Shown here piece by piece: positions 7,157 through 29,839 of a stretch of DNA of 46,888 bases (the first letter of the stretch is position 1; each line of letters starts with the position of its first letter). Source of the stretch: Oscillospiraceae bacterium (GTDB taxonomy: Bacteria > Bacillota > Clostridia > Oscillospirales > Oscillospiraceae). Made by a program: the position numbers and the translations under genes. The notes under the pieces are model-generated. The model did not search any database. It saw only the letters and a list, made by a program, of their open reading frames with translations, and had not been told where the DNA came from. The stretch is from assembly GCA_017538965.1 (NCBI GenBank), contig JAFYHU010000035.1, positions 1 through 46,888 of the forward strand, read 5' to 3'.

Positions 7157-8887
7157 TCAGATGCTCCACCCGGAACTGGCAGCCTGCAGCTGCGTCATGC
7201 GGCGGAAGACGCCGTTTTCGTTTGCAAGCAGCTCGGCGGGGCTGCCCTCCTCGGCAACTGTGCCGTCCGACAGAACCACGATCTTATCGGCGGCCTCCAC
7301 GGTGCGCATGCGGTGGGCAATGACCAGCACGGTTTTTCCGGCCAACAGTCTTGACAGCGCTCCCTGCACTTTCGTCTCGTTCTCCACGTCGAGGGAGGCC
7401 GTAGCCTCGTCGAGCAAGATGATGGGCGCGTCCTTCAGCAGCGCGCGGGCGATGGAGATACGCTGACGCTCGCCGCCGGACAGCTCGCTGCCGTTTTCAC
7501 CGATGACCGTGGCATAGCCCTGCGGCAGCTTCAGCGCGAACTCATCACAGTTGGCAAGTTTTGCCGCCTCCAGGACTTCTTCGTCGCTCGCGTCCTTTTT
7601 CCCGACGCGGATGTTCTCCAGGATACTGTTGTTAAAGAGCGTCACATCCTGAAACACGATGGAATAAACGCCCAGCAGCGTCTCCGGATCAATCTGTGAG
7701 ATGTCCTGCCCGCCGACCGTGATCCGGCCGCGGCTGACATCCCAGAAGCGGGCGGCAAGGCGGGAGACGGTGGTTTTTCCGCCACCTGAGGGGCCGACAA
7801 GCGCCGTGACCTCGCCTTGCTTTGCGGTAAAGCTCACGTCGTTCAGCACTGTTTTATCCTGCTCATAGGAGAAGCCGACGTTCTCAAAGCAGATGTCGTA
7901 TCCTGCCGGATGGAAGTCCGTCGTTCCGGTCTGTGCCGGATGCTCCGCGATCTCGTTCATTCGTTCCACAGGGACGGTCAGGAGATTCAACATACCCAGA
8001 TTGATCAGGTTGCCGCTCATAGGCTCATACAGGCGGGAGGCCACCAGAAGGAAGGCAAAGAACTCCATCACATTCAGCCGTCCCTGCAGAAGCAGCGCGC
8101 TGCCGACTACGGCGACCGTGCCGATGCCGAGCTTCAAGATCAGCTGGGCGGAGACAATGAAAACCGCTTGCCCCAGCTCCGCGCCGATGGCTTTCTTCTC
8201 CACATCGTCGATCTTCTCTTCCAACTCAGAGAGATAAGCGTCCTCTGCGTTGCAGCTTTTCAGGTCGCGGGATACTTCGATGAATTCCTGCACGGCGTCG
8301 TTCAGCCGCACCTTGGATTCCGACTGACGGCGGATGAAATGCGCCTGCACCTTTCTCGACACCGCCACGATGAAGATGGCGATGGGGATCGGCCATACAG
8401 CCGCCAAGGCCATCTCCCATTTATAGAAGAAGAGGCCGATACAGATCAGCGTCGTGGAGATCAGGCTTCCGTAAAACTGCGGGATCTGATGGGAGGACGC
8501 ATGCTCGATCGTTTCGGCGTCCGTCATGATCGTGTTTGTCAGGTCCGCCAGATCCTTTTTTCCGAAAAAGGACAGCGGCAGCTTCCGCAGTTTTTCCGCC
8601 AGGGAAATGCGGCGCTTGCTGGATTCCACATAGGTCGCGAAGAACGTGGCGTTGTACTGCCAGTAATTGGGAAGCCAGATCAGCACAAGACAGGCTGCCG
8701 CAAAGAGAAGGTAATACGCCCAGCGTCCGGCGGCAGTTCCAGCCAGAAACTCTCCGGTAAACGAAAACAGCAGCCCGACGGGGATCATCAGGGCAAGATC
8801 CGAGAGCGTTACAGCCAGGATTGCCCTGAGCATATCCGCGGCGCCCTTTTCCGTCAGCGCAAAGCGCTTCATCATAATCTGCTTCAT
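7157..8887 (-). CDS. ABC exporter-fold half-transporter, second of a heterodimeric pair
   Basis: A 576-residue fused membrane/ATPase ABC protein: six transmembrane helices (about residues 20-310) and an ATPase domain with Walker A GPSGGGKTT, signature LSGGERQR and Walker B IILLDEATASLD. It overlaps the preceding ABC gene by four bases (ATGA), so the two are made together and probably form a heterodimer. Type IV ABC pairs next to iron genes include YbtPQ and IrtAB, which have an exporter fold but import iron siderophores. This is the last gene of the minus-strand run that begins with feoA/feoB, and it ends at the bidirectional terminator at 7082. Transported substrate not readable. Confidence 0.9.
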   Translation of the reverse strand: MKQIMMKRFALTEKGAADMLRAILAVTLSDLALMIPVGLLFSFTGEFLAGTAAGRWAYYLLFAAACLVLIWLPNYWQYNATFFATYVESSKRRISLAEKLRKLPLSFFGKKDLADLTNTIMTDAETIEHASSHQIPQFYGSLISTTLICIGLFFYKWEMALAAVWPIPIAIFIVAVSRKVQAHFIRRQSESKVRLNDAVQEFIEVSRDLKSCNAEDAYLSELEEKIDDVEKKAIGAELGQAVFIVSAQLILKLGIGTVAVVGSALLLQGRLNVMEFFAFLLVASRLYEPMSGNLINLGMLNLLTVPVERMNEIAEHPAQTGTTDFHPAGYDICFENVGFSYEQDKTVLNDVSFTAKQGEVTALVGPSGGGKTTVSRLAARFWDVSRGRITVGGQDISQIDPETLLGVYSIVFQDVTLFNNSILENIRVGKKDASDEEVLEAAKLANCDEFALKLPQGYATVIGENGSELSGGERQRISIARALLKDAPIILLDEATASLDVENETKVQGALSRLLAGKTVLVIAHRMRTVEAADKIVVLSDGTVAEEGSPAELLANENGVFRRMTQLQAASSGWSI

Positions 8888-10665
8888 ACCGCTTCACCTA
8901 CTTTCCAGTTGACAGCTTTCTGATACTCCGTCCACATGTCCGCGTAGAGACCGTTCTTTTGCATTAGTTCGTCGTGCTTTCCCTGTTCTTCCACCAGGCC
9001 GTTATCCAGCACATAGATCCGGTCGGCGTTGCGGATCGTGGAGAGACGATGAGCGATCATGATCACCGTCCGCCCTTTGGCCATCTCTTGGAATGCCAGC
9101 TGCACCTGTGCCTCGCATTCCGGGTCGACAAAGGCGCTGGCTTCATCCAAAAGCACAACATCCGCATCCTTCAACATGGCGCGGGCGATGGCGATGCGCT
9201 GCTGTTCGCCGCCCGAGAGGTAGGTCCCCTGGGTGCCCAGCACCGTGTCAATCCCCTGGGGCAAACGGTCAAGGATGTCTGTACATTGGGCTTTTTTCAG
9301 CGCATCCAGCATTTCAGCCTCGGTAGCGTCCGGCTTGGCTATACGCAGATTGTCTGCGATGGAGCGTTTCAGCAGGCGGCTGTCCTGGAAAACATAGGCC
9401 ACATGCCGCATCAGCTCCTCCTTGGAGATCTGACGAACATCCACTCCGCCAATGAAAATCTGTCCCTCCTGCGGATCAAAGAAGCGGGAGATCAGACCGG
9501 CGACCGTAGTTTTTCCGCTTCCGGACGGGCCGACAAGGGCGACGATCTCATTTCGCTCCGCTTTCAGGGATAGATCGGACACTGCCGCCGGAGCGTCAGG
9601 CGAATACCGATAGGTCACGTCTTTCAGCTCTACGGTCGCGCCGCTCGGTTCTTTGCTGTGCTCCGCTTCCGGCAGAGGCTGCAGGCCGAGGATCGAATCC
9701 ACCCGGGCCACGGCGTCCTTGACCTTCATGTCGTTTTCGCTCATGAACATTACCTTGCTCATGGCTGTCGCGATCGCGGGGGTGAAGATGACGTAGAACA
9801 GGAAGTTCAGCAGAATATCCATCCGATAATTCTCACCACGGATCATAAACAGCGTCACGCCGAGAATAAAGACAAAGGCGCTGTTGATCAGCATGGTGTA
9901 TCCCACCATGGATTTGCGCATCATGCGGGTATAGTGCATGCAGAATTCGCAGTAATCGTCGATGGACGCTTTGAAGCGGTGGAAGGAGAACACGGTCTGC
10001 CCGAATGTTTTGACCACCGGGACGCCCCGCACATACTCCACAGCCTCGTTGCTCATGCGCTCAAGGGCATTCTGGTAGAGCCGCATATCCTCCTGCATGC
10101 CTGGACCCGCCATGCGCATCATGGCAGCAAAGCTCAAAGCGATCGGGATCAGGCAGGCAACGCCATAGCGCCAGTCGTACACAAACAGCATCACAAGCAT
10201 GCAAATCGGCATGGCGATCGCACCTGCCATGTCCGGCAGGTTATGTGCGAGCAGCGTTTCCGTGGAGCCGGTCACTTCCGTCACGATCCGGCGTACTTTG
10301 CCGGAACCCATCTCATCCGCAAAGCCGATGGGGAGGCGAGCAATGTGGCGCATCAATGCTTTTTTCATATTGGCCGCCGTGCGGAACGCACTGCCGTGAG
10401 AACAGACCAGCGCACCGACATAGACAAGCGCGGCCAGGACGGCGAACAGGACGGCCATCCACCCGTTTCGTACAATCCCTGTCGCCCGCGAGAAATCCGG
10501 CTGCACTTCCAGCACCTCGCGGATGATCCGCCACAGGAAGACGAAGGGCATCAGGGACAGAACACTGCTCAGCGCAGAGAGGATCAGCGACAGGTAGGTC
10601 AGGATTTTAAAACCGCCCGCGTATCCCAGCAGCTCCGAAAGCGCACTTTTCTTCTTTTCTTTCAT
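8884..10665 (-). CDS. ABC exporter-fold half-transporter, first of a heterodimeric pair
   Basis: A 593-residue ABC half-transporter with six transmembrane helices and an ATPase domain: Walker A GPSGSGKTT, signature LSGGEQQR, Walker B VVLLDEASAFVD. Replacement of the usual T-A-S-L by S-A-F-V in Walker B suggests that one site of the heterodimer differs from the other, as is common in such pairs. The frame extends 18 codons further upstream, but ATG at 10665 is preferred, with AAGGGAGAAATAAC before it. It begins 13 bases after feoB. The context with ferrous-iron genes makes an iron-chelate or metal-related substrate likely, by analogy with YbtPQ/IrtAB; drug or peptide export remains possible. 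Confidence 0.9.
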   Translation of the reverse strand: MKEKKKSALSELLGYAGGFKILTYLSLILSALSSVLSLMPFVFLWRIIREVLEVQPDFSRATGIVRNGWMAVLFAVLAALVYVGALVCSHGSAFRTAANMKKALMRHIARLPIGFADEMGSGKVRRIVTEVTGSTETLLAHNLPDMAGAIAMPICMLVMLFVYDWRYGVACLIPIALSFAAMMRMAGPGMQEDMRLYQNALERMSNEAVEYVRGVPVVKTFGQTVFSFHRFKASIDDYCEFCMHYTRMMRKSMVGYTMLINSAFVFILGVTLFMIRGENYRMDILLNFLFYVIFTPAIATAMSKVMFMSENDMKVKDAVARVDSILGLQPLPEAEHSKEPSGATVELKDVTYRYSPDAPAAVSDLSLKAERNEIVALVGPSGSGKTTVAGLISRFFDPQEGQIFIGGVDVRQISKEELMRHVAYVFQDSRLLKRSIADNLRIAKPDATEAEMLDALKKAQCTDILDRLPQGIDTVLGTQGTYLSGGEQQRIAIARAMLKDADVVLLDEASAFVDPECEAQVQLAFQEMAKGRTVIMIAHRLSTIRNADRIYVLDNGLVEEQGKHDELMQKNGLYADMWTEYQKAVNWKVGEAV

Positions 10666-10678
10666 GTTATTTCTCCCT

Positions 10679-12535
10679 TCACATGAACAGTGCGGCGATG
10701 TGATACACGATGCAGGCAAGGATCAGCGCGGCGCCGATATAGAACAGCGCCACGCGGGCCGTCCATTTCAGAGAGTGGGACTCACGGTAGGTAGTGGTCA
10801 ACGCCATGACGCAGGGCACGTTGAAGGTGCAGGCGAACAGGAAAGCCAGCGCTTCCGGCTTGGAAACAGACTGCACCATGTTGACAGCCAGCGCAGCATT
10901 GTCCTGTACAGCGGTTTTGGAGAAGAAGGTGGCCTCCAGCAAATTGCTCTGCCCCACGAAAGCGGCGTTCAGCACGCCCAGCACTGCCTCTTTCGCAAAA
11001 GCGGAACTGAGAAACGCCATAAAGGTCTGCCAGCCGAGTCCGAAGAAACGGGTCACCGGCTCGATTGCCGCACCGACACGGTAAAGCAAGCTGTTCTGGA
11101 TATCACCGCTGCTGCTGAACGAGAAGATATAGAACACCAGCGACACCAGCGTTACGGTTCCGAGCGCACGTTTGAAGATGTCCCACGCCTTCAGGAAGGC
11201 CTCCTTCAGAATATGCTTCCAATGCGCCTTGTGATAGGGCGGCAGCTCCATGATCATGCCGCTGCGCGCATCACGGGGAGCGAGCGTCCTGCCGAAAACT
11301 TTCGAGACGATCCACATCATCAGCACCATGTAGCAGAGGATCAGCAGGCACACCAGCAGCGTACCGACCGGGCCAAAGAACATGGCCGAGATCACAGGGA
11401 TCACGCCCCAAATCGCGCCGCAGGGTACCGCCCAGACAACGGCCATCGCCAGCATACGTTGCCCCCAGTTGTCCATGATGCGTGTGCCGCAGGCTCCGCC
11501 GATGGTACAGCCGAAGCCCATCAGCACCGGGCAGATGGCCTTGCCCTGCAGGCCAAGCCGGGAGAGGACGCCGTCAAACTGATAGGCGGCGCGAGCCAGA
11601 AAGCCGATCTCCTCCAGAAAACCGAAGGCCAGGTTGACGCCAAAGACAAAGCTCGCCATCGAGAGTGTGAAATACAGCACGTTCGGCAGCATCATGGCGA
11701 AGACGGATACCAGCCACGGATGGACATGCCAGCCGTTCAGAAGATTGGAAATGGGCTCATACAGGATTTGCGGGATCATCTGGGCGACGCCCATAATCGG
11801 GACGCAGACCATCATGGCGACCAGAAAGGCGGCCAGCACCACGCCGAGGCAGAGGAACTTGCCCTTGACGGGGCTGGTGGCGACGCGATCAAATTTCGAG
11901 AGCTTGTAGTCCGGGCTCACCGTGTGGGTCACGCCGCCCAGCATGGAGGAGATCCAGGCATATTTGGCCGCGCTCTGAGAGAGCACGGCTTCGGCGGAGC
12001 TTCCTTCCGCTCCGGATTCCGGCGCGGAGAGGAGCAGGTGCGGTGCTTCCAGTTCTTTTGCCAGTAACTGTCTGAGTTCCTCATAGCCTTTGCCGTCCGC
12101 CGCGGTGAAGGGCAGCACGGGGATACCCAGCCGCTTTTCCAGCAGCTTGTGATCTATTTCCTTCTTCTGCTGCTTCGCCACGTCCATCATGTTCAGCAGC
12201 AGCACGGCCGGCTTGTCCAGCGCTGCAAACTCCGCGACCATGTACATGCTGCGCTCCAGCTGCGAGGCGTCGACGAGGATGCAGACCAGATCGGCCTGAC
12301 CGGACTTGATGAAGTCGGCCGTGATGATCTCCTCGTCGGAGTTGCCGGAGAGGCCATAGCTGCCCGGCAGGTCGGTCACGGTATAGCGTGTCCCTTTGTA
12401 TATATAGAAGCCGTCGTTTTTCTCTACAGTCTTACCGGGCCAGTTGCCCACGTGCTGCCGGGAGCCTGTCAGCGCGTTATACACCGTGGACTTGCCGGAG
12501 TTGGGTTGGCCCAGAAGTGCAATCCTTGTTTTCAT
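10679..12535 (-). CDS. feoB: FeoB-type ferrous iron transporter, short form
   Basis: A 618-residue FeoB-like protein: an N-terminal GTPase domain (G1 GQPNSGKS, G2 region VGNWPGKTVEK, G3 DLPG, G4 LNMMD) followed by two gate domains (LMGFGCTIGGACGTRIMDN and FACTFNVPCVMA, with Cys residues in the membrane core). It lacks much of the periplasmic and C-terminal material of the second FeoB at 26956 (763 residues) and differs clearly from it in sequence, so it is not a recent duplicate. It overlaps feoA by four bases and precedes the ABC pair by 13. It probably imports Fe2+ or another divalent metal through the inner membrane with GTP-controlled gating. Confidence 0.9.
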   Translation of the reverse strand: MKTRIALLGQPNSGKSTVYNALTGSRQHVGNWPGKTVEKNDGFYIYKGTRYTVTDLPGSYGLSGNSDEEIITADFIKSGQADLVCILVDASQLERSMYMVAEFAALDKPAVLLLNMMDVAKQQKKEIDHKLLEKRLGIPVLPFTAADGKGYEELRQLLAKELEAPHLLLSAPESGAEGSSAEAVLSQSAAKYAWISSMLGGVTHTVSPDYKLSKFDRVATSPVKGKFLCLGVVLAAFLVAMMVCVPIMGVAQMIPQILYEPISNLLNGWHVHPWLVSVFAMMLPNVLYFTLSMASFVFGVNLAFGFLEEIGFLARAAYQFDGVLSRLGLQGKAICPVLMGFGCTIGGACGTRIMDNWGQRMLAMAVVWAVPCGAIWGVIPVISAMFFGPVGTLLVCLLILCYMVLMMWIVSKVFGRTLAPRDARSGMIMELPPYHKAHWKHILKEAFLKAWDIFKRALGTVTLVSLVFYIFSFSSSGDIQNSLLYRVGAAIEPVTRFFGLGWQTFMAFLSSAFAKEAVLGVLNAAFVGQSNLLEATFFSKTAVQDNAALAVNMVQSVSKPEALAFLFACTFNVPCVMALTTTYRESHSLKWTARVALFYIGAALILACIVYHIAALFM

Positions 12536-12753
12536 ACCGTTTCCACCTCGATCCTTTCCGCGTCCTTGCGGTTGATGGCGATCAGCGTTTCCCGAAGATA
12601 GACCAGAACGGGCATCTTGCGGTCGTTGCGCACCATCTGAAATTCCGTTCCTTCTGTGAGCCCGATGGCGGTAATACGGTTTGCAAAATGCGCATCACCG
12701 CCGATCCTGCGGATCAGGCCGTGCTCATCCGGTTTCGTGTCTGTCAGTTTCAT
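12532..12753 (-). CDS. feoA: FeoA family protein
   Basis: A 73-residue SH3-like FeoA protein, the small cytoplasmic partner of FeoB. The typical core is present: ANRITAIGLTEGTEFQMV, then YLRETLIAINRKDAERIEVE. Here the usual N-terminal beta strand is short (MKLTDTKPDEHGLIRRIGGDAHF). It overlaps both the Cys-rich peptide upstream and feoB downstream by four bases each, a tightly coupled arrangement. Confidence 0.88.
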   Translation of the reverse strand: MKLTDTKPDEHGLIRRIGGDAHFANRITAIGLTEGTEFQMVRNDRKMPVLVYLRETLIAINRKDAERIEVETV

Positions 12754-12923
12754 ACTTTTCCTCCCTCTTTATGAGCCGCGCAGCCGCTGCAGCCTTCACA
12801 GCCGCAGCTGCACCGCCCTTGTTTACGATTTTGAAGCTTCCTGCGCACAATGAGGAAGACAATGGCAGCTACCACAAGCAGCAGCACGATAGACGCCAGG
12901 TTTTCCGTGAGCCAGAGCAGCAT
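12750..12923 (-). CDS. FeoB-associated Cys-rich membrane peptide
   Basis: A 57-residue protein: one transmembrane helix (NLASIVLLLVVAAIVFLIV) followed by a basic linker and a Cys cluster (CSCGCEGCSGC). This matches the small FeoB-associated Cys-rich family found beside FeoB in Clostridia, thought to serve like the FeoC partner, perhaps by binding metal or sensing redox. The frame is open further upstream, but ATG at 12923 is chosen since AAGGAAG precedes it and the membrane helix starts directly. It is the first gene of the feoA-feoB-ABC-ABC unit, placed before feoA instead of behind feoB as in the other locus at 26634. Confidence 0.85.
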   Translation of the reverse strand: MLLWLTENLASIVLLLVVAAIVFLIVRRKLQNRKQGRCSCGCEGCSGCAAHKEGGKV

Positions 12924-12968
12924 GGTTATACTTCCTTTTCTTTTGTTTAATTTATCTAACGACATGCC

Positions 12969-13016
12969 TTTATAGATGCCCCACATCTTGTGAGGCAATC
13001 CGTTGATTATTAATCA
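12969..13016 (-). promoter_or_regulatory. Candidate promoter of the second feo/ABC unit, with palindrome
   Basis: On the minus strand, -35 TTGCCT (12993-12998) and -10 TATAAA (12969-12974) are 18 bases apart. Just upstream, over the stop of the dehydrogenase gene, is a perfect short palindrome TGATTA-T-TAATCA (13004-13016). These sit in the only gap (about 90 bases) inside the run from 24.6 to 7.2 kb, so the feo/ABC unit may have its own start site in addition to read-through. No good DtxR-type box is visible here. Confidence 0.4.
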
Positions 13017-14006
13017 GTTCCCGTACTTCTTATGCAGCGACTCCCAAGACGGCATTTGCGCGCGAAGCATATTCCAGCTCCGCAGTTTGTCCTTCGGATA
13101 ATCCTTCATCAGCTCTTCATAGTAGAGGTCGATTTGCTCCATTTCCATGACTGCGTTCCGGCAGTGCTCGCACGCGATCAGGTCGCCGATACTCCTGTTT
13201 TTTGCCATAACAAATAACAAAAACTTCATCAGCACTCCCCGTGACCCTTTATCGAAATACTTGTCTTCTCCCTCAGGGCGGACTGTGATCCCCTTGGCTT
13301 TCAGAAACTCAAACGCCTCATGAGAGGCGTCAACCATCAGACGGCGCTGTGCGTGTGTTGAGCTCGTCATGTCCCCATCGCAGATATAGGCAAGATAGCC
13401 GATTGGCAGGATCGCCGCGGGATGACAGATGAGATAGGACTCCATGTCCGGCTGCCAGCTGAGCCGGTACTTCGCGCCGGAAAACAGCGCTTCTACCATG
13501 CATTTGGTCGCCCTGTCGGTCTCACCGTGCAGCTGCCCGATATCCATGGTCACAGAACCCAGACGCTCGCAGACATACCGCGTTTTCTCCTTCTTCCCGC
13601 CGCTGACCTGAAAGCCGAACAGAAGCGTTTTCACCGCACTATGTTCACGGATGTAGTCGTGAAACTCTTGCGCGGAGAGATCGTTGCCGACCAGCACCAG
13701 CAGCTCGGTTCGGATCGCGCAGATCTGCGGCAGGGCCGCTCTCATTTTATGCCAGGGCATCACGACGAAGGCCGCGTCAAAGGTTCGGCCTTCTATGGAG
13801 CTTACCGCTTCGATTTGATCCACAGTTTCTTTCCTTTGAAGATGGTGCCAGATCCGCAGACCGTTTTCGTTCAGCATCCGCGCCCGCTCTTCCCGGACGA
13901 GGACGGTCATCTCGTTTCCCGCTTCCGCAAGGGCGTGGGTCAGGTAGGCTCCAATCACGCCGACGCCGAAAACCAAAACCTTTTTCATATGACTGTTTTT
14001 GCTCAC
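13014..14006 (-). CDS. Ketopantoate reductase (ApbA/PanE)-like NAD(P)-dependent dehydrogenase
   Basis: A 330-residue two-domain dehydrogenase. The Rossmann motif GVGVIG (residues 14-19) follows MKKVLVF, and the strand FDAAFVVMPWHKM with LVGND matches the ApbA/PanE fold, a family that reduces 2-oxo acids to 2-hydroxy acids. The C-terminal helical domain is about 30 residues longer than in PanE and poorly conserved, so the substrate is probably not ketopantoate. The GTG start at 14006 is supported by GGGGAGG seven bases upstream. It is the last gene of the metabolic array, behind the FMN-binding lipoprotein. It could supply the reductive step of a dedicated small-molecule pathway. Confidence 0.82.
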   Translation of the reverse strand: MSKNSHMKKVLVFGVGVIGAYLTHALAEAGNEMTVLVREERARMLNENGLRIWHHLQRKETVDQIEAVSSIEGRTFDAAFVVMPWHKMRAALPQICAIRTELLVLVGNDLSAQEFHDYIREHSAVKTLLFGFQVSGGKKEKTRYVCERLGSVTMDIGQLHGETDRATKCMVEALFSGAKYRLSWQPDMESYLICHPAAILPIGYLAYICDGDMTSSTHAQRRLMVDASHEAFEFLKAKGITVRPEGEDKYFDKGSRGVLMKFLLFVMAKNRSIGDLIACEHCRNAVMEMEQIDLYYEELMKDYPKDKLRSWNMLRAQMPSWESLHKKYGN

Positions 14007-14023: not shown

Positions 14024-14425
14024 TTAGTTTTGACTGTTGACTTCCGCCTGATTAAAACAGCTTTTTGCGGCTTTGATAACGGCGTTGGAGGTCATCGTCG
14101 CGCCGCTGACAGCGTCCACTTCCGGGCTTTGCCGTTCCAGGATCCTGTCGCAGAGCTTTCGGATCGCCCGATTTCCTTTTCCGCTTTCCTCTGGCCCTTC
14201 GATGCGAAGCCGGATGATATCTGTTTCTGAAAACTGAGCCTCGACAGTGACTGTTCCCGCAAATCCCCATGCGCTTGCTTTATATTCGCCCGCGATAAAG
14301 TATCCGGTTCCCTGAAGCTGATCTTCAGAGGCGCTGCGTTGATACACGTTCTTCGATGAAGCGCAACCGCTTAACAGAAACAGCACTGCCAACAGCAGTC
14401 CGGCTGTCTTATGGATAATTCTCAT
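14024..14425 (-). CDS. FMN-binding domain lipoprotein
   Basis: A 133-residue secreted lipoprotein. The signal peptide ends in a lipobox LLSGC with Cys21 as the lipidated residue, so it is anchored on the outer face of the membrane. The rest is an FMN-binding domain of the NqrC/RnfG kind: the motif DAVSGATMTS (104-113) carries Thr110, the residue to which ApbE covalently attaches FMN in characterised proteins. Such small flavoproteins carry electrons across or outside the membrane, for instance in flavin-based extracellular electron transfer. Here it is embedded in an otherwise cytoplasmic/membrane array, only one base after the ATC-hydrolase-family gene. No apbE is seen in the window. Confidence 0.87.
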   Translation of the reverse strand: MRIIHKTAGLLLAVLFLLSGCASSKNVYQRSASEDQLQGTGYFIAGEYKASAWGFAGTVTVEAQFSETDIIRLRIEGPEESGKGNRAIRKLCDRILERQSPEVDAVSGATMTSNAVIKAAKSCFNQAEVNSQN

Positions 14426-22411: not shown

Positions 22412-23052
22412 GTTTCAATCCTCGCTTTCTTCTTGTATCCGCAATCGCAGTAGGGACCGCCGGAAGCCAGCGTGTACCGGCGCACGAAATCCGACGCCCC
22501 GCCCGCCTCGCTCATGGCGTAATCCAGTGCGCACATGGCCGGGACAATCTCGAAGATCCCCAGCTCGCGCATCAGCGTGCAGATGCCGCATTTTGAAAAC
22601 CGCGCCTCGTAGCCGCTGCCGTCCGGATAGGGCAGGAGCTCCATATTCCACGAATAGGGGTTGCGGTCGGCGGCATTCAGCGCAGCCGTGGCCTCCATGC
22701 CCTGCACATCCTTTTTGCTGAACTTCTGTTTCCCTGCCATCCGGCAGAAAAGTTTCATCGGCGTGATCATCATGGCCGCACGATAGTATTCGGTCATCTG
22801 CTCCACGGTCGGTTTGCGCTCCATGCTCAGATAGAAGGCCGCCAGCATAGCGCAGTTGACGATGTTCATCTTGAATCGGTCGCCTTTCTCAAACTCCGGC
22901 AGAGAGGCGATGATCTCTTTGTATCGGGGCAGCGCTTTCTTCTCCGTCTCCGCCGCGGCAGTTTGTGAAAAACCGCAGACAGAGACCAGCTTTTCCCGGA
23001 AGGACCTGTGAAACAGCGCCCACATCCCCATGGGCATTCCGGCATATTTCAT
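22405..23052 (-). CDS. L-2-amino-thiazoline-4-carboxylate hydrolase family protein, copy 3
   Basis: A 215-residue protein with the ATC-hydrolase family core: RFSKCGICTLMRELGIFEIVP, AMCALDYAMSEAGG, and RRYTLASGGPYCDCGY near the end. The N-terminus (MPMGMWALFHRSFREKL) is typical of clostridial relatives. GAGGGTACGAAT lies before the ATG, ten bases after the methyltransferase. Sequence divergence from copies 1 and 2 is high apart from the Cys/Asp motifs. The enzyme may act on a thiazoline or another amide ring, or have another role; the family is poorly characterised. Confidence 0.78.
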   Translation of the reverse strand: MKYAGMPMGMWALFHRSFREKLVSVCGFSQTAAAETEKKALPRYKEIIASLPEFEKGDRFKMNIVNCAMLAAFYLSMERKPTVEQMTEYYRAAMMITPMKLFCRMAGKQKFSKKDVQGMEATAALNAADRNPYSWNMELLPYPDGSGYEARFSKCGICTLMRELGIFEIVPAMCALDYAMSEAGGASDFVRRYTLASGGPYCDCGYKKKARIETC

Positions 23053-23062: not shown

Positions 23063-23743
23063 TCACTTTACGCAGCGGAAGATGCCCTCCGCCCGCACGG
23101 TATGTGCCTCCACCTGAGCATACAGCCCTTCCAGCCTGCGCCGCAGGCTCTCCTTTGTCTCAAAGGGTGGGGTGAAAAAGCCTTTTGGGACGTACATGTG
23201 CTGAACGAACCAATCCGTCCGGGCAAATTCCTCCGCGATATAAAAGCAGCCGCAGAAGACGCCGCCGGGCTTGAGCACGCGGCAGGTCTCGCGGAACGCC
23301 GCGTCCTTGTCCGGGAAGGCGTGGAAGCCGTTGAGGGAGAGGACAATATCAAAACTCGCATCTTCAAAGGGCAGCGCGCCCACGTCGCCCTGCAAGAAGG
23401 AGACGTTCTTTACACCCATGGCCTCCGCGCGCTTCCTGGCGTTGCCCATCATGTCCGCCGAGTAGTCGAGACAGGTGATCGCCGCTTCCGGCAGACTCTT
23501 ATACAGCGGCATGGTAAGCACGCCGGTTCCGACAGGCACCTCCAGCAGGCTTCCGGCAAAGTCGTCTGGGATCGGCGCCAGGGCGTCGTTGATCCATTGG
23601 GCTGACAGCTCCTTGTCCAGTCCCCAGATCAGGCTGTCCAGCAGCTTCCCCGTCAGCGTTGACCGGGTGATGATCCCGTCGTACATTGTGCCGACCTTAC
23701 CAAGTGTCTTATAGGACTCTCTGATCTCGTCATGACGGCTCAT
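23063..23743 (-). CDS. Class I SAM-dependent methyltransferase, array copy 2
   Basis: A 226-residue UbiE-like methyltransferase: motif I SLLEVPVGTGVLTMPL, post-I ITCLDYSADMM, motif II ASFDIVLSLNGFHAFPD, motif III VLKPGGVFCGCFYI. Two in-frame ATGs exist; the one at 23743 is chosen because GGAGGGAGG lies seven bases before it, while for 23749 it would be one base away. The N-terminus MSRHDEIRESYKTLG is echoed by a decayed copy at 30368-30449. Acceptor unknown. It follows the first hydrolase of the array by 18 bases. Confidence 0.88.
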   Translation of the reverse strand: MSRHDEIRESYKTLGKVGTMYDGIITRSTLTGKLLDSLIWGLDKELSAQWINDALAPIPDDFAGSLLEVPVGTGVLTMPLYKSLPEAAITCLDYSADMMGNARKRAEAMGVKNVSFLQGDVGALPFEDASFDIVLSLNGFHAFPDKDAAFRETCRVLKPGGVFCGCFYIAEEFARTDWFVQHMYVPKGFFTPPFETKESLRRRLEGLYAQVEAHTVRAEGIFRCVK

Positions 23744-23761
23744 ACGCATGTCCTCCCTCCA

Positions 23762-24535
23762 TTAATCTCTCAAAAACCGGGTGACCTCTTCATAAAACCG
23801 CTCCGGGAACATCAGTACCAGCTCCGCATGAGCCAGGCCCTTGAACTCTCGCGGGACGGTCTGCGGATAAACCTTTCGGGTATAGGCCAGATCGTTTTTC
23901 CGGGCCTTTTTCTCTTCCTCGCCGTACCAGTATTCGATCTGCGTATCCACAGCCGGGACAGGTTCCGGCATGAAATAATTGTTCGTGGACCAGAAGACCC
24001 TGTAGATCGTCCGGGGAGAGAAGTGGCGTTTCTCAAATTCAAAGATCTTCCGATAATGCTCCTCGGGATCTTCACCCGCCGGCGTCCAGCGCTCCGGCGG
24101 CATGGCCAGCTTCATGAGCGTCATGGACTTTGTGCCCAGCATCACAGTGATCCAGTCCCAGACGGAGATCAGCCGGCAGATCAGGCGCGGATACGGAGAG
24201 GGCGTGATGCCTGCATCGATGATCGCTTTGTCCACGGGGATGCTCTCCGTCGCCAGAAAGCGGATCACACTGGCCCCGCCCATCGAGACGCCGTACATGG
24301 CATCAATATGTCTGATGTCCTTTTTCTTAAGATATTCGGCAGCATCCCTCACTGTTTTTTCGATGGAGACGAACTCCGTGCCCTGCTCGTCGTGTCCGTC
24401 CGCGATGAAGAGATAAACATGATAGTCTCTCGCCATGGCCTCAGCGGAGGATTTGAACACCCACCATGGCTCCGCGGCGCATTGGAACATAACGAAGACT
24501 TTTTCGTGCTCGGTTCCGAACTCGTATACCTTCAT
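23762..24535 (-). CDS. Alpha/beta hydrolase, copy 3 of the array
   Basis: A 257-residue alpha/beta hydrolase, the first full-length gene of the metabolic array. It has the shared opening (KVYEFGTEHEKVFVMFQ, then YHVYLFIADGHDEQG), the nucleophile elbow YGVSMGGASVI and a likely catalytic His in GLAHAELVL. Its start overlaps the stop of a 27-codon frame (ATGA) that carries the nearest ribosome site. The oxyanion region (CAAEPWW) differs from the HGGG and PGTA of the other copies, another sign of diverged function. Confidence 0.86.
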   Translation of the reverse strand: MKVYEFGTEHEKVFVMFQCAAEPWWVFKSSAEAMARDYHVYLFIADGHDEQGTEFVSIEKTVRDAAEYLKKKDIRHIDAMYGVSMGGASVIRFLATESIPVDKAIIDAGITPSPYPRLICRLISVWDWITVMLGTKSMTLMKLAMPPERWTPAGEDPEEHYRKIFEFEKRHFSPRTIYRVFWSTNNYFMPEPVPAVDTQIEYWYGEEEKKARKNDLAYTRKVYPQTVPREFKGLAHAELVLMFPERFYEEVTRFLRD

Positions 24536-24652: not shown

Positions 24653-24713
24653 GGGGCTGAATAAGCCCCGTCCTCTCACACCACCGTGCGTACCGTTCGG
24701 TACACGGCGGTTC
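24653..24713 (-). other. Group II intron domains V and VI
   Basis: Domain V is the hairpin at about 24675-24713 (CCGCCGTGTACC, loop, GGTACGCACGGTGG), the catalytic heart of the ribozyme. Domain VI is GGGGC-TTATTCA-GCCCC (24653-24669), followed by CCTACTCAAT with the probable branch-point A. The stop codon of the maturase overlaps the first bases of domain V. Intact arms suggest the ribozyme is still functional. Confidence 0.75.
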
Positions 24714-26106
24714 AATCGTATAAGTGCAGAGACTCGTATCGGTCTAGGATGCTGTAGTATCCAGCCTGTGCGAGTCTTTCATTTGAAATGGCACGGTTTA
24801 CCGTGGTTGTTCCCGCCATTCTCCAATAGCCTTTACGGGAATTACCGTATTGGTATGCCGCCCATTTGGGGATTCCGAGTTTCAACAGGTTCTTCACTCT
24901 TGTTTTTGGCAGCTTCCATTGCTTCCAGATGTACATCCGAAAGCGGCGGCGCAGCCATCCGTCCCATTCCTTCATCGTGTTGCGCATACTCGCAATTCCA
25001 AAATATCCAAGCCATCCGAGGATGAATTCTTTTACCTTGTACATCACCACACGGACGTTTCTGCCCTGACTGCGGGAAGTCAGTTCTTTCAGTTTCTGCT
25101 TTGCTTTCTTCAAGGACTTCGCATGGGTGCGGATGTACACGCCATCTTTCCCCTTCCCGAGTGCAAAGCCCAGGAACTTAAAATTTCGCTTCGAGTATAC
25201 GCTTACAACTCTGCTCTTCTCCACATTCATCTTGAGTTTCAGTTTCCCCTCAAGATATTTTCGGCTGGATTCGAGCAATCGGGCTCCTGCTCTCGAAGTT
25301 TTGGCCAGTACAACGATGTCATCTGCATAGCGAATCACATGGACGCCCCTGCTTTCCATCTCGTGGTCATACTTGTTGAGGTAGATGTTTGCCAGAAGCG
25401 GACTGAGTGGGCCGCCTTGCGGTGAGCCTTCCTCCGTCTTGATATGAAGCCCGTCTTCCATTACACCGCTTTTGAGGAACTTCTTTATGAGTTCAATCAC
25501 GCGCTTGTCGTGGACTTCTTCTCGCACCATGTTCATCAGCAGATCATGGTTCAGCGTGTCAAAATACTTGGACAGGTCAATGAGCACCGCTGTGGTATAG
25601 CCCTGTTCCGCATATTCTTTCACTTTCTGAATCGCCATCTGTGCACTTCTGCCCGGTCGGTAGCCGTAGCTCCCGTCCGAGAACAGCGGTTCAAAGATCA
25701 GGGTCAGTTGCTGGGCGATTGCCTGTTGGATGATGCGGTCTATTACCGTTGGGATGCCCAATTTTCGTATTCCGCCATCCGGTTTCGGGATTTCCTTTCG
25801 ACGTACCGGTTGTGGTTTGTATTTGCCGCTCCGGATTTGATCAAGAAGTTCCTCCCTGTGTTCCCTCAGCCAAGGCAGGGCATCTTCCACCGTCATTCCG
25901 TCGATGCCGGGTGCTCCCTTGTTGGCCTTCACCCGCTTGAACGCTCTGTTCAGATTCTCTCTGCTCAGTATTCGTTCCAGCAGGTCTGCACCGTCCGTTT
26001 CTTCGGGTTCCTGTCTGTCAATACTCCGCGCTCCCGCATACTCTTCATGTTCCGCACTATTCCTTTGCAGGCAGCCCCCGTTTCCAGGGTATTCTGCTTT
26101 CTTCAT
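24712..26106 (-). CDS. ltrA: Group II intron reverse transcriptase/maturase
   Basis: A 464-residue intron-encoded protein that helps splicing and copies the intron into new DNA sites. Reverse transcriptase blocks run from about residue 55 to 300, with the catalytic IRYADDIVVL and the upstream YGYRPGRSAQMA, LIDLSKYFDTLNHDLL and GSPQGGPLSPLLANIYL motifs; the X/maturase domain follows (LKLGIPKWAAYQYGNSRKGYWRMA). There is no C-terminal HNH endonuclease. GGAGGTCAAT lies before the ATG. All catalytic Asp residues are present and the frame is unbroken, so it is probably active. Confidence 0.92.
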   Translation of the reverse strand: MKKAEYPGNGGCLQRNSAEHEEYAGARSIDRQEPEETDGADLLERILSRENLNRAFKRVKANKGAPGIDGMTVEDALPWLREHREELLDQIRSGKYKPQPVRRKEIPKPDGGIRKLGIPTVIDRIIQQAIAQQLTLIFEPLFSDGSYGYRPGRSAQMAIQKVKEYAEQGYTTAVLIDLSKYFDTLNHDLLMNMVREEVHDKRVIELIKKFLKSGVMEDGLHIKTEEGSPQGGPLSPLLANIYLNKYDHEMESRGVHVIRYADDIVVLAKTSRAGARLLESSRKYLEGKLKLKMNVEKSRVVSVYSKRNFKFLGFALGKGKDGVYIRTHAKSLKKAKQKLKELTSRSQGRNVRVVMYKVKEFILGWLGYFGIASMRNTMKEWDGWLRRRFRMYIWKQWKLPKTRVKNLLKLGIPKWAAYQYGNSRKGYWRMAGTTTVNRAISNERLAQAGYYSILDRYESLHLYD

Positions 26107-26580
26107 ATTGACCTCCTTCCTCCGTTTCTTCGGACTTACGATTGTTCGGCCCTTCCCGGTTGTCTTCCGGTACTATGGCCTCTGCTGACTTCTCACAGTT
26201 CGTTGTTACTACGGTGCGGCTACCTTCTGCTCATTGCTTTACCCGGTTTCGGCCCTCCTGCCGTCCGCTCCGCCTGTGAGATCTCCCCGGGTACTCACAC
26301 GTTCTTTCACTCTTATACCCGCCATGTCTACCGCAAGCGATTCCGTGCAGCTATTGGGCTTCGACTTGTATAGCAGTCTTACCCTCGCTCGCGGCCTGAC
26401 ATGATTCCTGTTCGTCGAGCCAGAGTTTTGCCCATGGAGAGACCTTTCAACTCTCCAAATCCGGCTTCCTTCAGATTCCGCCTCGCAACGGACACCCTTG
26501 CCTTTGGCTAACGCTTCCCACTGCCGGGCGCGTTCGGGACTTTCACCCTATAGAACGTGCGCTCGCCGGGCGCACTATTA

Positions 26581-26633: not shown

Positions 26634-26870
26634 TCAGGGAGCGTTGCCTGATACGCTGTTCGTTCTGTGATTCATTGTTGCGGCGTTTATCTTACAGCTA
26701 CCGCAGGCGCTGCAGCCGCTGCATGCCCCGCATGAAGCGCAGTTGCATCCGCAGGAGCTTTTTCCTGCTTTTTTATCACGGATCATACCGCGCAGCAGCA
26801 GACCCACGATCAAGACGAGCACAGCTACAAGCGCAATATTGATCAGATTGGCGGAAAACCATGCAAGCAT
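26634..26870 (-). CDS. FeoB-associated Cys-rich membrane peptide
   Basis: A 78-residue protein with one transmembrane helix (LINIALVAVLVLIVGLLLRGM), a basic linker and a dense Cys cluster (CGCNCASCGACSGCSACGSC), belonging to the FeoB-associated Cys-rich family. It lies behind feoB, the usual position, separated by 85 bases containing a long hairpin. AAAAGGAAGTGATCTT precedes the ATG. The C-terminal 20 residues after the Cys cluster are unusual for the family. Its likely job is to support FeoB, perhaps by metal binding. Confidence 0.85.
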   Translation of the reverse strand: MLAWFSANLINIALVAVLVLIVGLLLRGMIRDKKAGKSSCGCNCASCGACSGCSACGSCKINAATMNHRTNSVSGNAP

Positions 26871-26955: not shown

Positions 26956-29247
26956 TTACTTAATCGTCAGTTTCTGGGCTTCCTTATAAGGCTTGAAGAG
27001 TTGCCACAGGAGCAGTGCCAGCATCACCAGTGCAAAAACCAGACCCACGGCATTCATTCCGCCGGCGAACACGCGCCCGAGCTGCCAGACGATGAAGGCT
27101 ATGACCCAGGCAAAGCAGCACTGATAGCCGATGGCGAACCAGGTCCACTTCGCGCTGTTCATCTCGCGCTTGATGGCGCCCATGGCCGCAAAGCACGGCG
27201 CGCACAGAAGGTTGAAGATCATGAAGGCGAAGGCGGCGAGCTTCCCGTGTCCGCCGGAGAAGGCGTTGAAGTCCTCATCCACGCGATCCCAGATCTGGTC
27301 GCCGTTCTCCTCCAGCTCTTCCTCGCCGTCCGCATCGTCATAGGCGTACATAATGCCGAAGTTGGCAACAACTTCCTCCTTCGCTACAAGACCGGTGACA
27401 GTTGCGGCTGTGGGCTTCCAGTCGCCGAAGCCCAGGGGCTTGAACACAATGGACACGGGCTGCGCTACGCGGGCCAGGATAGAGTCGTCCATCGGCTCGA
27501 CCTCGTCCTCGGGGATGCCCATGCGGTCGGCAACGACGGCAATGTATTTATCGGTCACAACCGTGTCGTCTTCGTAGAGATCTTTGACCATACCGAACCG
27601 ACCGTTGACGGAGCCAAAGCTGGTGAGGAACCAGATGACAATGGAGGAGATCACAATGACCGTGCCGGCGCGCTTGATGAAGCTCCAGCCGCGTTCCCAG
27701 GTGCCGCGCAGGACGTTGCCCCAGGCAGGCAGGTGGTAGGCAGGCAACTCCATGACGAAGGGTGCGGGATCGCCTGCGAATCGCTTGGTCTTTTTCAGCA
27801 TGACGCCGGAGATAATGATGGCGGCCACGCCGATGAAGTAGGCCGAGGTGGCAACCCAGGTACTGCCGCCGAAGAGCGCGCCCGCGATCAGGCCGATGAT
27901 CGGCATTTTCGCGCCGCAGGGCATGAAGGTCGTGGTCGTGATGGTCATGCGGCGGTCGCGCTCGTTTTCAATGGTGCGGGAGGCCATGACGCCGGGAATG
28001 CCGCAGCCGGTAGCGACGAGCATCGGAATGAAGCTCTTGCCTGAGAGGCCAAAGCGGCGGAAGATGCGGTCCATGATGAAGGCGATTCGGGCCATGTAGC
28101 CGCAGTCCTCCAGAATGCACAGCATCAGGAACAGCACAAGCATCTGGGGCACAAAGCCCAGCACCGCGCCAACACCCGCAAGGATACCGTCGGAAATCAG
28201 GCCGACCAGCCACGGGGCGACATTCCAGCTCTCGAGGAGGGCGCGAGAGCCGCCCTGCAGCCACTCGCCTCCGATCACGTCGTTCGTCCAGTCGGTGAGA
28301 AAGGTGCCGATGCCGATGCCGCCGTCCGCGATGGAGGTGCCCATCGACAGGGCGTAGACCAGCCACATGACAAGCACGAAGATCGGCAGGGCGAGGATGC
28401 GGTTGGTGACGATCTTGTCGATCTTATCGGAGACGGAGAGCTGGCCCTTGCCCTTCTTTTTATAGATGCCCTTGAGCATCTGGCCGATATAGATGTAACG
28501 CTCGTTGGTGATGATGCTTTCAGCGTCGTCGTCAAGTTCCTTCTCCGCCGCCTGGATGTCTTTTTCGATGTGCGCCTTGATCTCATCCGAGAGGGCAAGG
28601 CTTTCCACAACCTTTTCGTCGCGCTCGAAGAGCTTGATGGCATACCAGCGCTGCCGCTCCTCGGGCAGATTATGTACCGTGACTTCTTCGATGTGAGCCA
28701 GCGCATGCTCGACCGGGCCGGAGAAGCTGTGCTGCGGAATCGTTTTGCCGTTCTTCGCCGCCTCGATCGCGGCCAGCGCCGCGTCCTTGATGCCGTCGCC
28801 CTTCAGGGCGGAGATCTCGACGATCGGGCAGCCGAGCTGACGCGACAGCTCCTTGACGTTGATGCTGTCCCCGGCCTTTTTGACCAGGTCCATCATGTTC
28901 AGCGCGATGACCACGGGGATGCCCAGCTCCGTGAGCTGCGTGGTCAGATAAAGGTTGCGCTCCAGGTTGGTTGCGTCCACGATATTGAGGATGGCGTCCG
29001 GTTTTTCTTCGATCAGGTAATTCCGAGCTACGACCTCTTCCAACGTATAGGGGGAAAGCGAGTAGATGCCGGGCAGGTCGGTCAGCACGACTTCCTTGTC
29101 GACGATCAGTTTGCCTTCCTTCTTTTCCACGGTTACGCCGGGCCAGTTGCCGACGAACTGGTTCGAGCCGGTCAGCTTGTTGAACAGGGTGGTTTTGCCG
29201 CTGTTCGGGTTGCCCGCCAGGGCGATGCGCAGCTGTCTGTTCTCCAT
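26956..29247 (-). CDS. feoB: FeoB ferrous iron transporter, full length
   Basis: A 763-residue FeoB. GTPase domain: G1 GNPNSGKTT, G2 NWPGVTVEKKEG, G3 DLPGIYSL, G4 LNMMD; helical insertion domain to about residue 270; two gate domains with the typical VATGCGIPGVMASRTI and NLLCAPCFAAMGAI Cys motifs. It contains the acidic insertion YAYDDADGEEELEEN, common in clostridial FeoB. It imports Fe2+ with GTP-linked gating. The ATG follows feoA by one base. It is the conventional housekeeping FeoB of the two in this window. Confidence 0.95.
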   Translation of the reverse strand: MENRQLRIALAGNPNSGKTTLFNKLTGSNQFVGNWPGVTVEKKEGKLIVDKEVVLTDLPGIYSLSPYTLEEVVARNYLIEEKPDAILNIVDATNLERNLYLTTQLTELGIPVVIALNMMDLVKKAGDSINVKELSRQLGCPIVEISALKGDGIKDAALAAIEAAKNGKTIPQHSFSGPVEHALAHIEEVTVHNLPEERQRWYAIKLFERDEKVVESLALSDEIKAHIEKDIQAAEKELDDDAESIITNERYIYIGQMLKGIYKKKGKGQLSVSDKIDKIVTNRILALPIFVLVMWLVYALSMGTSIADGGIGIGTFLTDWTNDVIGGEWLQGGSRALLESWNVAPWLVGLISDGILAGVGAVLGFVPQMLVLFLMLCILEDCGYMARIAFIMDRIFRRFGLSGKSFIPMLVATGCGIPGVMASRTIENERDRRMTITTTTFMPCGAKMPIIGLIAGALFGGSTWVATSAYFIGVAAIIISGVMLKKTKRFAGDPAPFVMELPAYHLPAWGNVLRGTWERGWSFIKRAGTVIVISSIVIWFLTSFGSVNGRFGMVKDLYEDDTVVTDKYIAVVADRMGIPEDEVEPMDDSILARVAQPVSIVFKPLGFGDWKPTAATVTGLVAKEEVVANFGIMYAYDDADGEEELEENGDQIWDRVDEDFNAFSGGHGKLAAFAFMIFNLLCAPCFAAMGAIKREMNSAKWTWFAIGYQCCFAWVIAFIVWQLGRVFAGGMNAVGLVFALVMLALLLWQLFKPYKEAQKLTIK

Positions 29248-29248: not shown

Positions 29249-29470
29249 TTATTCCACCTCGATCATTTCAGCGTCCGCCTTGCGGATCGAAAGCTCATAG
29301 TTTCTCACATTGACCTCAATGGGGTCGCCCAGCGGGGCCAGCTTGCGGACAAAGACTTCGACGCCCTTGGTGATGCCCATGTCCATGATGCGGCGCTTGA
29401 CCGCACCTTCGCCGTGCAGCTTCACGACTCTGACGGTCTCGCCGACTTTTGCTTCTCTGAGTGTTTTCAT
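29249..29470 (-). CDS. feoA: FeoA family protein, second gene of the locus
   Basis: A 73-residue SH3-fold FeoA: TLREAKVGETVRVVKLHGEG, AVKRRIMDMGITKGVEVFV, then PIEVNVRNYELSIRKADAEMIEV. ATG at 29470 is preferred over 29476 because AAAGGAG lies eight bases before it instead of two. It is directly followed by feoB. Confidence 0.9.
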   Translation of the reverse strand: MKTLREAKVGETVRVVKLHGEGAVKRRIMDMGITKGVEVFVRKLAPLGDPIEVNVRNYELSIRKADAEMIEVE

Positions 29471-29497
29471 CCTCATCTCTCCTTTATGTCATTTTGA

Positions 29498-29713
29498 TCA
29501 GACCATAATCTTAGTCGCCATCTCGCGGCTGATCGCCACACGGGATTCCTTGACTTTGACGATCAGATTGCCGCCGATGGTGTTCATCACCGTGACAGCG
29601 CCTCCGACTGTAAAGCCCATGTCCTCCAGGTGCTTTTTCATCTCGGGGCTGCCGCCGACACGCCGAATGATGTTCTCCTCACCTGCATCCGCCATAACCA
29701 GAGGCATCATCAT
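29498..29713 (-). CDS. feoA: FeoA family protein, first gene of the locus
   Basis: A roughly 71-residue FeoA-type protein with NIIRRVGGSPEMKKHLEDMG, then GGAVTVMNTIGGNLIVKVKESRVAISREMA. Three ATGs in a row (29713, 29710, 29707) follow GGGAGAGGAA; 29713 is listed but the true start may be either of the next two. Two tandem feoA genes before feoB are common in Clostridia. The gene lies about 90 bases downstream of the promoter with the DtxR-type half-sites. Confidence 0.87.
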   Translation of the reverse strand: MMMPLVMADAGEENIIRRVGGSPEMKKHLEDMGFTVGGAVTVMNTIGGNLIVKVKESRVAISREMATKIMV

Positions 29714-29762
29714 TTCCTCTCCCTTCATTGAAGTAAATGCTTCTTCTTTTAGTAAAACACCT

Positions 29763-29839
29763 CTAACCTCAGGGGTGAAAGAAAGGGTTAGAACCTCCTA
29801 ACCTGGATGTAGTTTAACATCTTTAATCTCAGTTGTCAA
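29763..29839 (-). promoter_or_regulatory. feo promoter with DtxR-type operator
   Basis: Minus-strand promoter: -35 TTGACA (29834-29839), 17-base spacer, -10 TAAACT (29811-29816). Just after the -10 is the inverted repeat GGTTAG (29786-29791)/CTAACC (29798-29803) with a six-base spacer, and a third half-site CTAACC at 29763-29768. These resemble iron boxes of DtxR/IdeR proteins (TTAGGTTAGSCTAACCTAA type). The position over the start site suits repression by the divergent DtxR-family protein when iron is sufficient. Confidence 0.65.

Follow-up and report, generated by a model that had tools for sequence, protein, structure and literature searches.

We analyzed a window of 46,888 nucleotides, the whole of contig JAFYHU010000035.1 (assembly GCA_017538965.1) from an Oscillospiraceae bacterium, in which a minus-strand operon carries an array of 17 genes (alpha/beta hydrolases, methyltransferases, small membrane proteins and others) between two Feo iron-uptake systems and ends in a pair of ATP-binding cassette (ABC) half-transporters. 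We conclude from in silico evidence that the array very probably belongs to an iron-limitation regulon, because one operator is common to iron genes and array genes. We also lean, at a little above an even chance, toward reading the whole as one iron-limitation operon that joins chelate uptake to a variable set of enzymes processing the ligand. An earlier note on this DNA had tied the array to metal through its Feo and ABC neighbors. That link is upheld by the shared operator, by clustering with the ABC pair (one subunit of which is IrtA/YbtP-like) and by a DtxR-type gene beside the operator, a divergent gene that was absent from that note's gene list. The unifying feature of the arrays is the operator, rather than adjacency to Feo.

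To collect related loci, we used p166, a small membrane protein of the array, as the search marker. A scan of one genome per species (84,980 species) with 22 aligned p166 homologues gave 592 candidate stretches, at least 394 of which were confirmed. The window, 80 named loci (the best 80 of these at least 394) and nine stretches from six further genomes make up the 90 stretches compared here; L017 was left out, as no window gene matched it. Several of the 90 come from a shared contig, and L064 and L102, at least, lie on the same contigs as G059:C34 and G040:C55. Genes were called with custom scripts, the resulting 1434 genes were clustered, and families were named from Pfam matches of cluster representatives. 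In a separate comparison of 297 relatives, 35 carried p166; the window's genome is among these, and most of them belong to the same genus. Because these 35 genomes were chosen for p166, linkage tests in them ask only where genes lie.

The operator, GGTTAG-AACCTC-CTAACC, closely follows the promoter-like sequence and has feoA on one side and the divergent DtxR-type gene on the other. In the 3.39-Mb genome the exact full palindrome occurs once, and one further match, with one mismatch, falls inside a coding frame on contig C17. Across the 90 stretches the full palindrome has 22 exact copies at spacing 6, none at spacings 0–5, 7–10, 12 or 13, and one at 11. In 1.38 Mb of sequence the core, GTTAG-N6-CTAAC, has 129 sites, spread over 62 of the 90 stretches; 125 of them are outside called genes, though non-genic DNA makes up 14% of the sequence, and eight permuted palindromes used as controls have 0–2 copies each. 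In the 35 whole genomes the core was found 198 times and the reversed pattern 17 times (summed per-genome counts). Half-sites favor GTTAG-C, 50% of them having C as the first spacer base. Where a promoter-like match could be assigned, the operator center lay 10–19 nt downstream of the end of the –10 element in 26 of 55 cases, as it does in the window, a placement that suits a repressor.

Genes within 300 nt of the 129 sites were from array families only at 44 sites, from iron, metal, transport or regulator families only at 50 (TetR, AraC, ABC and one aldo-keto reductase being counted among these), and from both at 5. Of the 609 genes in the 90 stretches that follow a gap of more than 60 nt, 171 are array genes (a summed figure) and 299 fall into the class of other genes. 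A second set of 78 unique sites, one of them shared with the first, was drawn from most of the 35 genomes, one stretch each, plus picked extra sites of a few; it gave 27 array, 27 iron-regulon and 1 site with both, and 13 of its sites precede an array gene that is the sole array gene in the 2–3.5 kb read. Operator-preceded genes include feo, ZIP, P-type ATPase, DUF3793-flavodoxin, ABC and array genes, some of the last apparently alone. Pfam scans of one protein each from 10 site-bearing stretches returned FTR1, Peripla_BP_2, DUF6796, a sub-threshold NEAT match and six others. The targets that point to iron are FeoAB, FTR1, the Peripla_BP_2 protein, ZIP, DUF6110 with a P-type ATPase, DUF3793-flavodoxin and the sub-threshold NEAT protein. 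According to PMC9374683, DUF6110 genes usually accompany those of P1B6 transporters, and a low-iron table for Clostridioides difficile includes ZupT, an ATPase with a small hypothetical gene, feoA-feoA-feoB-hypothetical and the flavodoxin fldX (PMC6311696). DUF3793-flavodoxin pairs (L024:4501-5507 and others) have the same operator upstream in several loci, which suggests that DUF3793 works in iron limitation.

The candidate regulator matches PF01325 at 51.1 bits (cut-off 26) and PF02742 at 53.7 bits (cut-off 27). In the window's genome a single core site and a single PF02742 match (E ≤ 1e-5) occur, side by side. A C-x-x-E-H motif occurs in six of seven DtxR-like proteins (DACKIEH in the window's), and the matching cysteine is of the Fe2+ type in DtxR and in EqbA, the DtxR-like regulator of the equibactin locus, as described in PMC3672683. 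No third, SH3-like C-terminal domain was matched in the 124 residues; EqbA likewise has none (PMC3672683), so the absence would be a trait of a subclass. The TTAG-N6-CTAA spacing of the core is that of the single-dimer IdeR consensus, TTAGGNNNNCCTAA, as given in PMC8464063. From its position and the motif, we infer that the DtxR-type protein binds the operator.

Linkage within the 35 genomes was compared with expected values calculated for random placement, contig ends ignored. DtxR-type genes lay within 10 kb of an array marker in 15 of 54 cases (0.8 expected) and feoB in 12 of 79 (1.2 expected). In the 10 of these genomes with a full site listing, operator cores were within 3 kb of array markers in 19 of 75 cases (0.5 expected) and within 3 kb of feoB in 7 of 75 (0.3 expected).

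The predicted transcription unit spans from the promoter-like sequence at 29.84 kb to a hairpin at 7.08–7.12 kb (Table 1). The open reading frame listing gives 26 genes and an intron maturase, from the first feoA to the second ABC half-transporter, in the order FeoA-FeoA-FeoB-FeoB_associated, 17 array genes, FeoB_associated-FeoA-FeoB-ABC-ABC. The single-strand layout described earlier is therefore confirmed, with two corrections: that description counted 25 genes and took the maturase as the exception in strand, and the maturase too is on the minus strand. Its tight packing was also borne out, the largest intergenic gap being 85 bp outside the intron region. The group II intron separates the first hydrolase from the first Cys-rich gene; with its RNA in sense orientation and its maturase on the minus strand, it leaves the codirectionality of the operon unbroken. 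The hairpin directly past the last ABC gene has 19 pairs, and internal minus-strand terminator-like sites of the unit have stems of at most 9 pairs; the scan as a whole found 39 sites on both strands, against 20.3 in shuffles.

Open reading frames and Pfam reproduced the list of genes given before (hydrolases, methyltransferases, ATC, membrane, HMA, FMN and dehydrogenase). The array comprises four alpha/beta hydrolases, two UbiE-like methyltransferases and one of LCM type, three ATC_hydrolase proteins (PF14196), four small membrane proteins (three of one family, termed MEM, and a DUF6796 protein), an HMA peptide, an FMN_bind lipoprotein and an ApbA-domain dehydrogenase. Of 20 proteins scanned (the 17 of the array, the two Cys-rich proteins and the third FeoA), Pfam matched 17 at E ≤ 0.01, in some cases short of the curated cut-off; hydrolase C and two small membrane proteins had no match. 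The remaining seven matched as FeoA, FeoA, FeoB, maturase, FeoB, ABC and ABC; FeoB_Cyto was not matched by Pfam in the short FeoB, unlike in the long one. Upstream, an AraC-type regulator (30591-31520) adjoins the DtxR-type gene, and outside the operon a 1445-residue protein (35644-39981) carries PAS, EAL and GGDEF domains.

Table 1. Features of the operon and its flanks in window coordinates (pLDDT, predicted local distance difference test)
Feature	Position	Strand	Basis or remark
DtxR-type iron-dependent repressor, 124 aa, no SH3 domain; candidate regulator	29906..30280	+	PF01325 + PF02742; C-x-x-E-H
Operator GGTTAG-N6-CTAACC	29786..29803	.	sole exact copy in 3.39-Mb genome
Promoter-like TTGACA-17-TAAACT, TG before –10	29811..29839	-	sequence scan
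feoA 1	29498..29728	-	PF04023
feoA 2	29249..29476	-	PF04023
feoB, long form (763 aa)	26956..29247	-	FeoB_N, FeoB_Cyto, Gate, FeoB_C
FeoB-associated Cys-rich membrane protein	26634..26870	-	PF12669
Group II intron RNA	26296-26492 and 26149-26213	-	RNA match
Group II intron maturase, inserted in operon	24712..26106	-	RVT_1 + GIIM
Alpha/beta hydrolase A	23762..24535	-	Abhydrolase_6, below Pfam cut-off
Methyltransferase A	23063..23749	-	Methyltransf_25
ATC_hydrolase-family protein A	22405..23052	-	PF14196; model pLDDT 95.5
HMA metal-binding peptide	22160..22411	-	PF00403
LCM-type methyltransferase	21336..22163	-	PF04072
Methyltransferase B	20700..21326	-	Methyltransf_25
Alpha/beta hydrolase C	19875..20642	-	no Pfam hit; BLAST clustering with hydrolases A and B
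DUF6796 membrane protein	19146..19874	-	PF20599
Small membrane protein, MEM family	18553..19062	-	clustering
BAAT_C-type alpha/beta hydrolase	17610..18530	-	PF08840
Small membrane protein p166, MEM family; search marker	17100..17600	-	homologue searches
ATC_hydrolase-family protein B	16471..17079	-	PF14196
Small membrane protein, MEM family	15968..16474	-	clustering
Alpha/beta hydrolase B (start probably at internal ATG)	15195..15971	-	PF12697
ATC_hydrolase-family protein C	14427..15173	-	PF14196
FMN_bind lipoprotein; no group member at 50% identity in other stretches	14024..14425	-	PF04205
ApbA-domain (ketopantoate-reductase-like) dehydrogenase	13014..13988	-	PF02558
FeoB-associated Cys-rich membrane protein 2	12750..12998	-	PF12669
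feoA 3	12532..12753	-	PF04023
feoB, short form (618 aa)	10679..12535	-	FeoB_N, Gate, FeoB_C
ABC half-transporter 1 (ABC1), IrtA/YbtP-like membrane domain	8884..10671	-	ABC_membrane + ABC_tran
ABC half-transporter 2 (ABC2)	7157..8887	-	ABC_membrane + ABC_tran
19-pair hairpin, candidate terminator	7082..7122	.	hairpin scan

Across Clostridia, related arrays draw on the same families in shuffled order. Counted as genes/stretches over the 90 stretches, array families were methyltransferases 112/57, MEM 105/86 (selected for), DUF6796 57/41, ATC 53/37, atcB 30/23, hydrolases 49/37, an unnamed 165-residue membrane family 46/32, HSL-like esterases 31/29, LCM 26/25, ApbA-like 23/23, BAAT 18/15 and PEMT-like 17/16. 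Their companions were ABC in the broad sense 99/51, TetR 27/25, P-type ATPase 19/19, DUF6110 16/16, FeoB 18/16, FeoA 16/16, ZIP 11/10, DUF3793 9/9, flavodoxin 8/8, DtxR 7/6 and parts of energy-coupling factor (ECF) transporters 6/5. At least eight array genes were present in 32 stretches, all 32 with MEM (the bait), 29 with a methyltransferase and 28 with ATC. Adjacent array pairs were codirectional in 405 of 412 cases, while gene order was near-random (observed/expected adjacency 0.51 to 2.55 for pairs seen at least four times), and relatives of window genes, up to 70–88% identical, stood in differently ordered loci. The ApbA-like dehydrogenase was found in 7 of 149 relatives. This looks like a shuffled, exchanged gene pool rather than a fixed pathway; given how widely the arrays differ in gene content and order, a single fixed pathway is unlikely. 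A ruminant gut sample (goat, sheep, roe deer or water deer) is named in the titles of 31 of the 80 best relatives, and the rest name no host; many of the remaining titles bear RUG, RUI, SIG or UBA codes, RUG being one that we take to stand for rumen. Named carriers include Ruminococcus flavefaciens YAD2003 and ND2009, Butyrivibrio sp. FCS014, and Lachnospiraceae XPB1003 and NC2008; in the last three, array and core operator occur in one stretch. L085:179-544 encodes a FeoB-associated Cys-rich segment naturally fused to HMA (the FeoB_associated match being sub-threshold), has an operator upstream and belongs to a recurrent family of eight genes, and at L068:916-2222 Trep_Strep and CbiQ parts of an ECF transporter, a second candidate chelate importer, occur inside array loci.

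FeoAB import Fe2+, and the exporter-fold ABC pairs YbtPQ and IrtAB import iron chelates. The ABC genes of the window are adjacent and overlapping, each with ABC_membrane and ABC_tran domains and with canonical nucleotide-site motifs kept (by eye, in the translations), and we infer that ABC1 and ABC2 form a heterodimer. Compared with transporters of solved structure, the membrane domain of ABC1 scored best with IrtA (85 bits) and YbtP (80), followed by YbtQ (41), CydD (34), BmrA (29) and MsbA (25). At full length, YbtP (319 bits) and IrtA (306) were best among single half-transporters; tandem P-glycoproteins scored higher, probably through their two domains. For full-length ABC2 the best half-transporter was YbtQ, with 286 bits vs 267 for TM288. 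In the 35 genomes, 12 of 13 ABC1 homologues (E ≤ 1e-150, the window's own included) lay within 10 kb of an array marker (0.2 expected) and 13 of 13 within 20 kb, in a search that scored 38 candidates per genome of up to 119, so that weaker homologues away from arrays may escape it. Enclosure by Feo, as the earlier note had it, holds at this locus and usually not elsewhere. Of the conserved linkage to iron genes that it looked for, the part concerning this type of ABC transporter stands, and the part concerning Feo does so weakly. Adjacency to Feo is enriched without being general: FeoB is present in 16 of the 90 stretches, and the broad ABC family (not only this pair) in 51.

The array proteins allow some comment on chemistry. 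The three ATC proteins scored 85.2, 86.9 and 32.7 bits against a PF14196 cut-off of 28.1. Over 57 sequences this family has invariant C155, C174, D177 and R191 and a nearly invariant C202-D203, and its structure model weakly resembles H-NOX, Bet3 and V4R domains, a likeness that fits a published sequence comparison (PMC5847659). All four hydrolases keep the nucleophile-elbow serine (by eye). A D-x4-D core is common to MEM and the 165-residue family, and most members have a P-x-E or P-G-x-E-like motif after it; this may point to shared ancestry and to a metal or substrate site. The ApbA-domain protein missed the 2-dehydropantoate 2-reductase model (TIGR00745, 66.9 bits, cut-off 141.35), only the N-terminal ApbA domain of ketopantoate reductases being matched by Pfam, and we rejected that identity; its family has an invariant set of its own, including H189 and H275-C-R-N, in 14 sequences. 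As reported earlier for nonribosomal peptide synthetases (NRPS) and nicotianamine-synthase-like genes, Pfam scans of the 26 operon proteins and the maturase found neither, nor any polyketide synthase or IucA/IucC synthetase, and the operon proteins had no match to an opine dehydrogenase. We slightly favor the view that the enzymes act on a predicted iron ligand handled by the ABC pair.

We propose the following mechanism. With iron present, the DtxR-type repressor would bind the palindrome, which lies over the predicted transcription start, and keep the operon off. Under iron limitation transcription would run from feoA to the last ABC gene, and the sense-oriented group II intron could be spliced out. 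Judging from their families, Fe2+ would enter through the two Feo systems, and an iron chelate through the ABC pair, a presumed heterodimer of exporter fold in which one subunit resembles IrtA/YbtP. More speculatively, the hydrolases, methyltransferases, PF14196 proteins, NAD(P)-dependent dehydrogenase and small membrane proteins of the array would act on the organic ligand, most likely by opening or modifying the imported chelators and so freeing the iron, with the different shuffled set in each species serving as a repertoire for varied ligands. The per-species set fits such a repertoire better than one fixed pathway.

Several observations weigh against this proposal. Because a single array gene served to pick the 90 stretches, co-occurrence inside them is partly due to selection; FeoB is beside a minority of arrays only (16 of 90 stretches; 12 of 79 feoB genes). 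No exact core site was found in 28 of the 90 stretches, and the promoter-like scan was weak (55 of 124 in sense, 36 of 124 in antisense). Other genes follow the operator at 20 of the 129 and 23 of the 78 sites, and at 10 of the 129 there is no gene within 300 nt. Among 20 same-genus genomes drawn from the 262 without a p166 match, 16 have the operator, with 58 sites (16 of them from one genome) against 17 for the control; given this presence at lower contrast, we regard it as a clade-wide box used by the arrays, not private to them. The H-NOX/V4R-like fold of the PF14196 model would say little about chemistry, the ABC2 membrane domain is not specific (BmrA and TM288 43 bits, YbtP 33, YbtQ 29), and the depth of the ABC1 search noted above bears on its linkage. 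Both R. flavefaciens stretches, L074 and L078, have array-type genes but lack an exact core operator over 20 kb, perhaps because another regulator acts there or the site has diverged.

We considered how else the locus might be explained. That the genes are chance neighbors in a recombination hotspot was already disfavored and is very improbable: shuffled order, a minority of Feo adjacency and a group II intron inside the operon would suit it, but the 13 sites upstream of a lone array gene (lone within the 2–3.5 kb read), the codirectional pairs and the enrichment near feoB and ABC1 do not. Unlikely, though less so, is that the array builds or tailors a new metallophore without NRPS, NRPS-independent siderophore (NIS) or nicotianamine-synthase-like enzymes and that the ABC pair takes it back up. 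In its favor, an iron regulon here has methyltransferases, hydrolases and a dehydrogenase beside a siderophore-importer-like ABC pair, and the equibactin locus, with a DtxR-like regulator, an ABC importer and a biosynthetic operon, offers a precedent in the account of PMC3672683. Against it, no scaffold-building enzyme is in the array or among the recurrent family representatives examined by Pfam, a dedicated exporter was not identified, and the content is too variable for one pathway. The failure to find a scaffold enzyme, together with the wide variation in content, leads us to prefer processing of imported chelates to biosynthesis.

We give similarly low weight to iron sparing or envelope remodeling, in which low iron would bring lipid or cofactor changes by these enzymes, none of them acting on a chelator. 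Three families of membrane proteins, PEMT-like methyltransferases and lipase-like hydrolases recur, and an iron-sparing flavodoxin is in the same regulon; the specific linkage to the ABC pair (13 of 13) goes against this explanation, and such variation in content would be unusual for a housekeeping response. Defense or detoxification, with the ABC pair exporting and the enzymes inactivating antimicrobial chelators or other toxins met at low iron, appears improbable. TetR genes are common (fam9 in 25 of 90 stretches), often before ABC genes, and the shuffling of cassettes resembles that of resistance or defense islands, but PADLOC gave no defense match beyond one marginal E1-E2 for ten of the 17 array proteins, and ABC1 resembles importers.

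Taken together, the operon and its shuffled relatives point to an undescribed way of getting iron. The operator turns an unassigned array into a testable regulon with named cultured carriers and offers a sequence handle for predicting, in many species, the iron-responsive members among uncharacterized enzymes. Should these enzymes make or process chelators, their iron chemistry would lie beyond the known classes of synthetase and be distributed as a pool of shuffled genes. A bolder and doubtful extension is that rumen Clostridia share iron-regulated enzyme cassettes, reshuffled and exchanged between species, which would let every species build or remodel a small iron chelator of its own through combinatorial tailoring, with no NRPS, NIS or nicotianamine-synthase-like scaffold enzyme involved; if true, this metallophore chemistry and chelator arms race would be undescribed in the literature searched.

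Known systems resemble parts of this locus. Opine metallophore (Cnt-type) and NRPS/NIS siderophore clusters combine iron or metal control, a dehydrogenase and a transporter in one locus, whereas their core biosynthetic enzymes were not found by Pfam among the operon proteins here. Like IrtAB and YbtPQ, the ABC genes are an adjacent half-transporter pair, with the membrane domain of ABC1 nearest IrtA/YbtP; unlike in those systems, there is no room for the N-terminal SID domain of IrtA, and the ABC2 membrane domain is unspecific. The operator of the C. difficile regulon is a Fur box, different from this palindrome. That Fur/low-iron regulon shares FeoAAB, ZupT, an ATPase with a small hypothetical gene and a flavodoxin with the one described here, whereas a comparable enzyme array was not met in the parts of PMC6311696 considered. 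IdeR/DtxR regulons share the TTAG-N6-CTAA spacing (per PMC8464063), the divergent regulator gene and an operator at the predicted start site; they differ in having an overlapping 19-bp TTAGGTTAGSCTAACCTAA in place of the G-TTAG-C...G-CTAA-C flanks, and the members here include enzyme arrays. The equibactin locus of Streptococcus equi (eqbA-N), as described in PMC3672683, likewise has an SH3-less DtxR-like regulator (EqbA) with the Fe-type cysteine, a palindrome upstream of a long operon, ABC import (EqbHIJ) and an alpha/beta hydrolase. It pairs these with an NRPS and a 36-bp palindrome, whereas the operon described here, which has no NRPS, combines an 18-bp operator, shuffled enzymes and two Feo systems.

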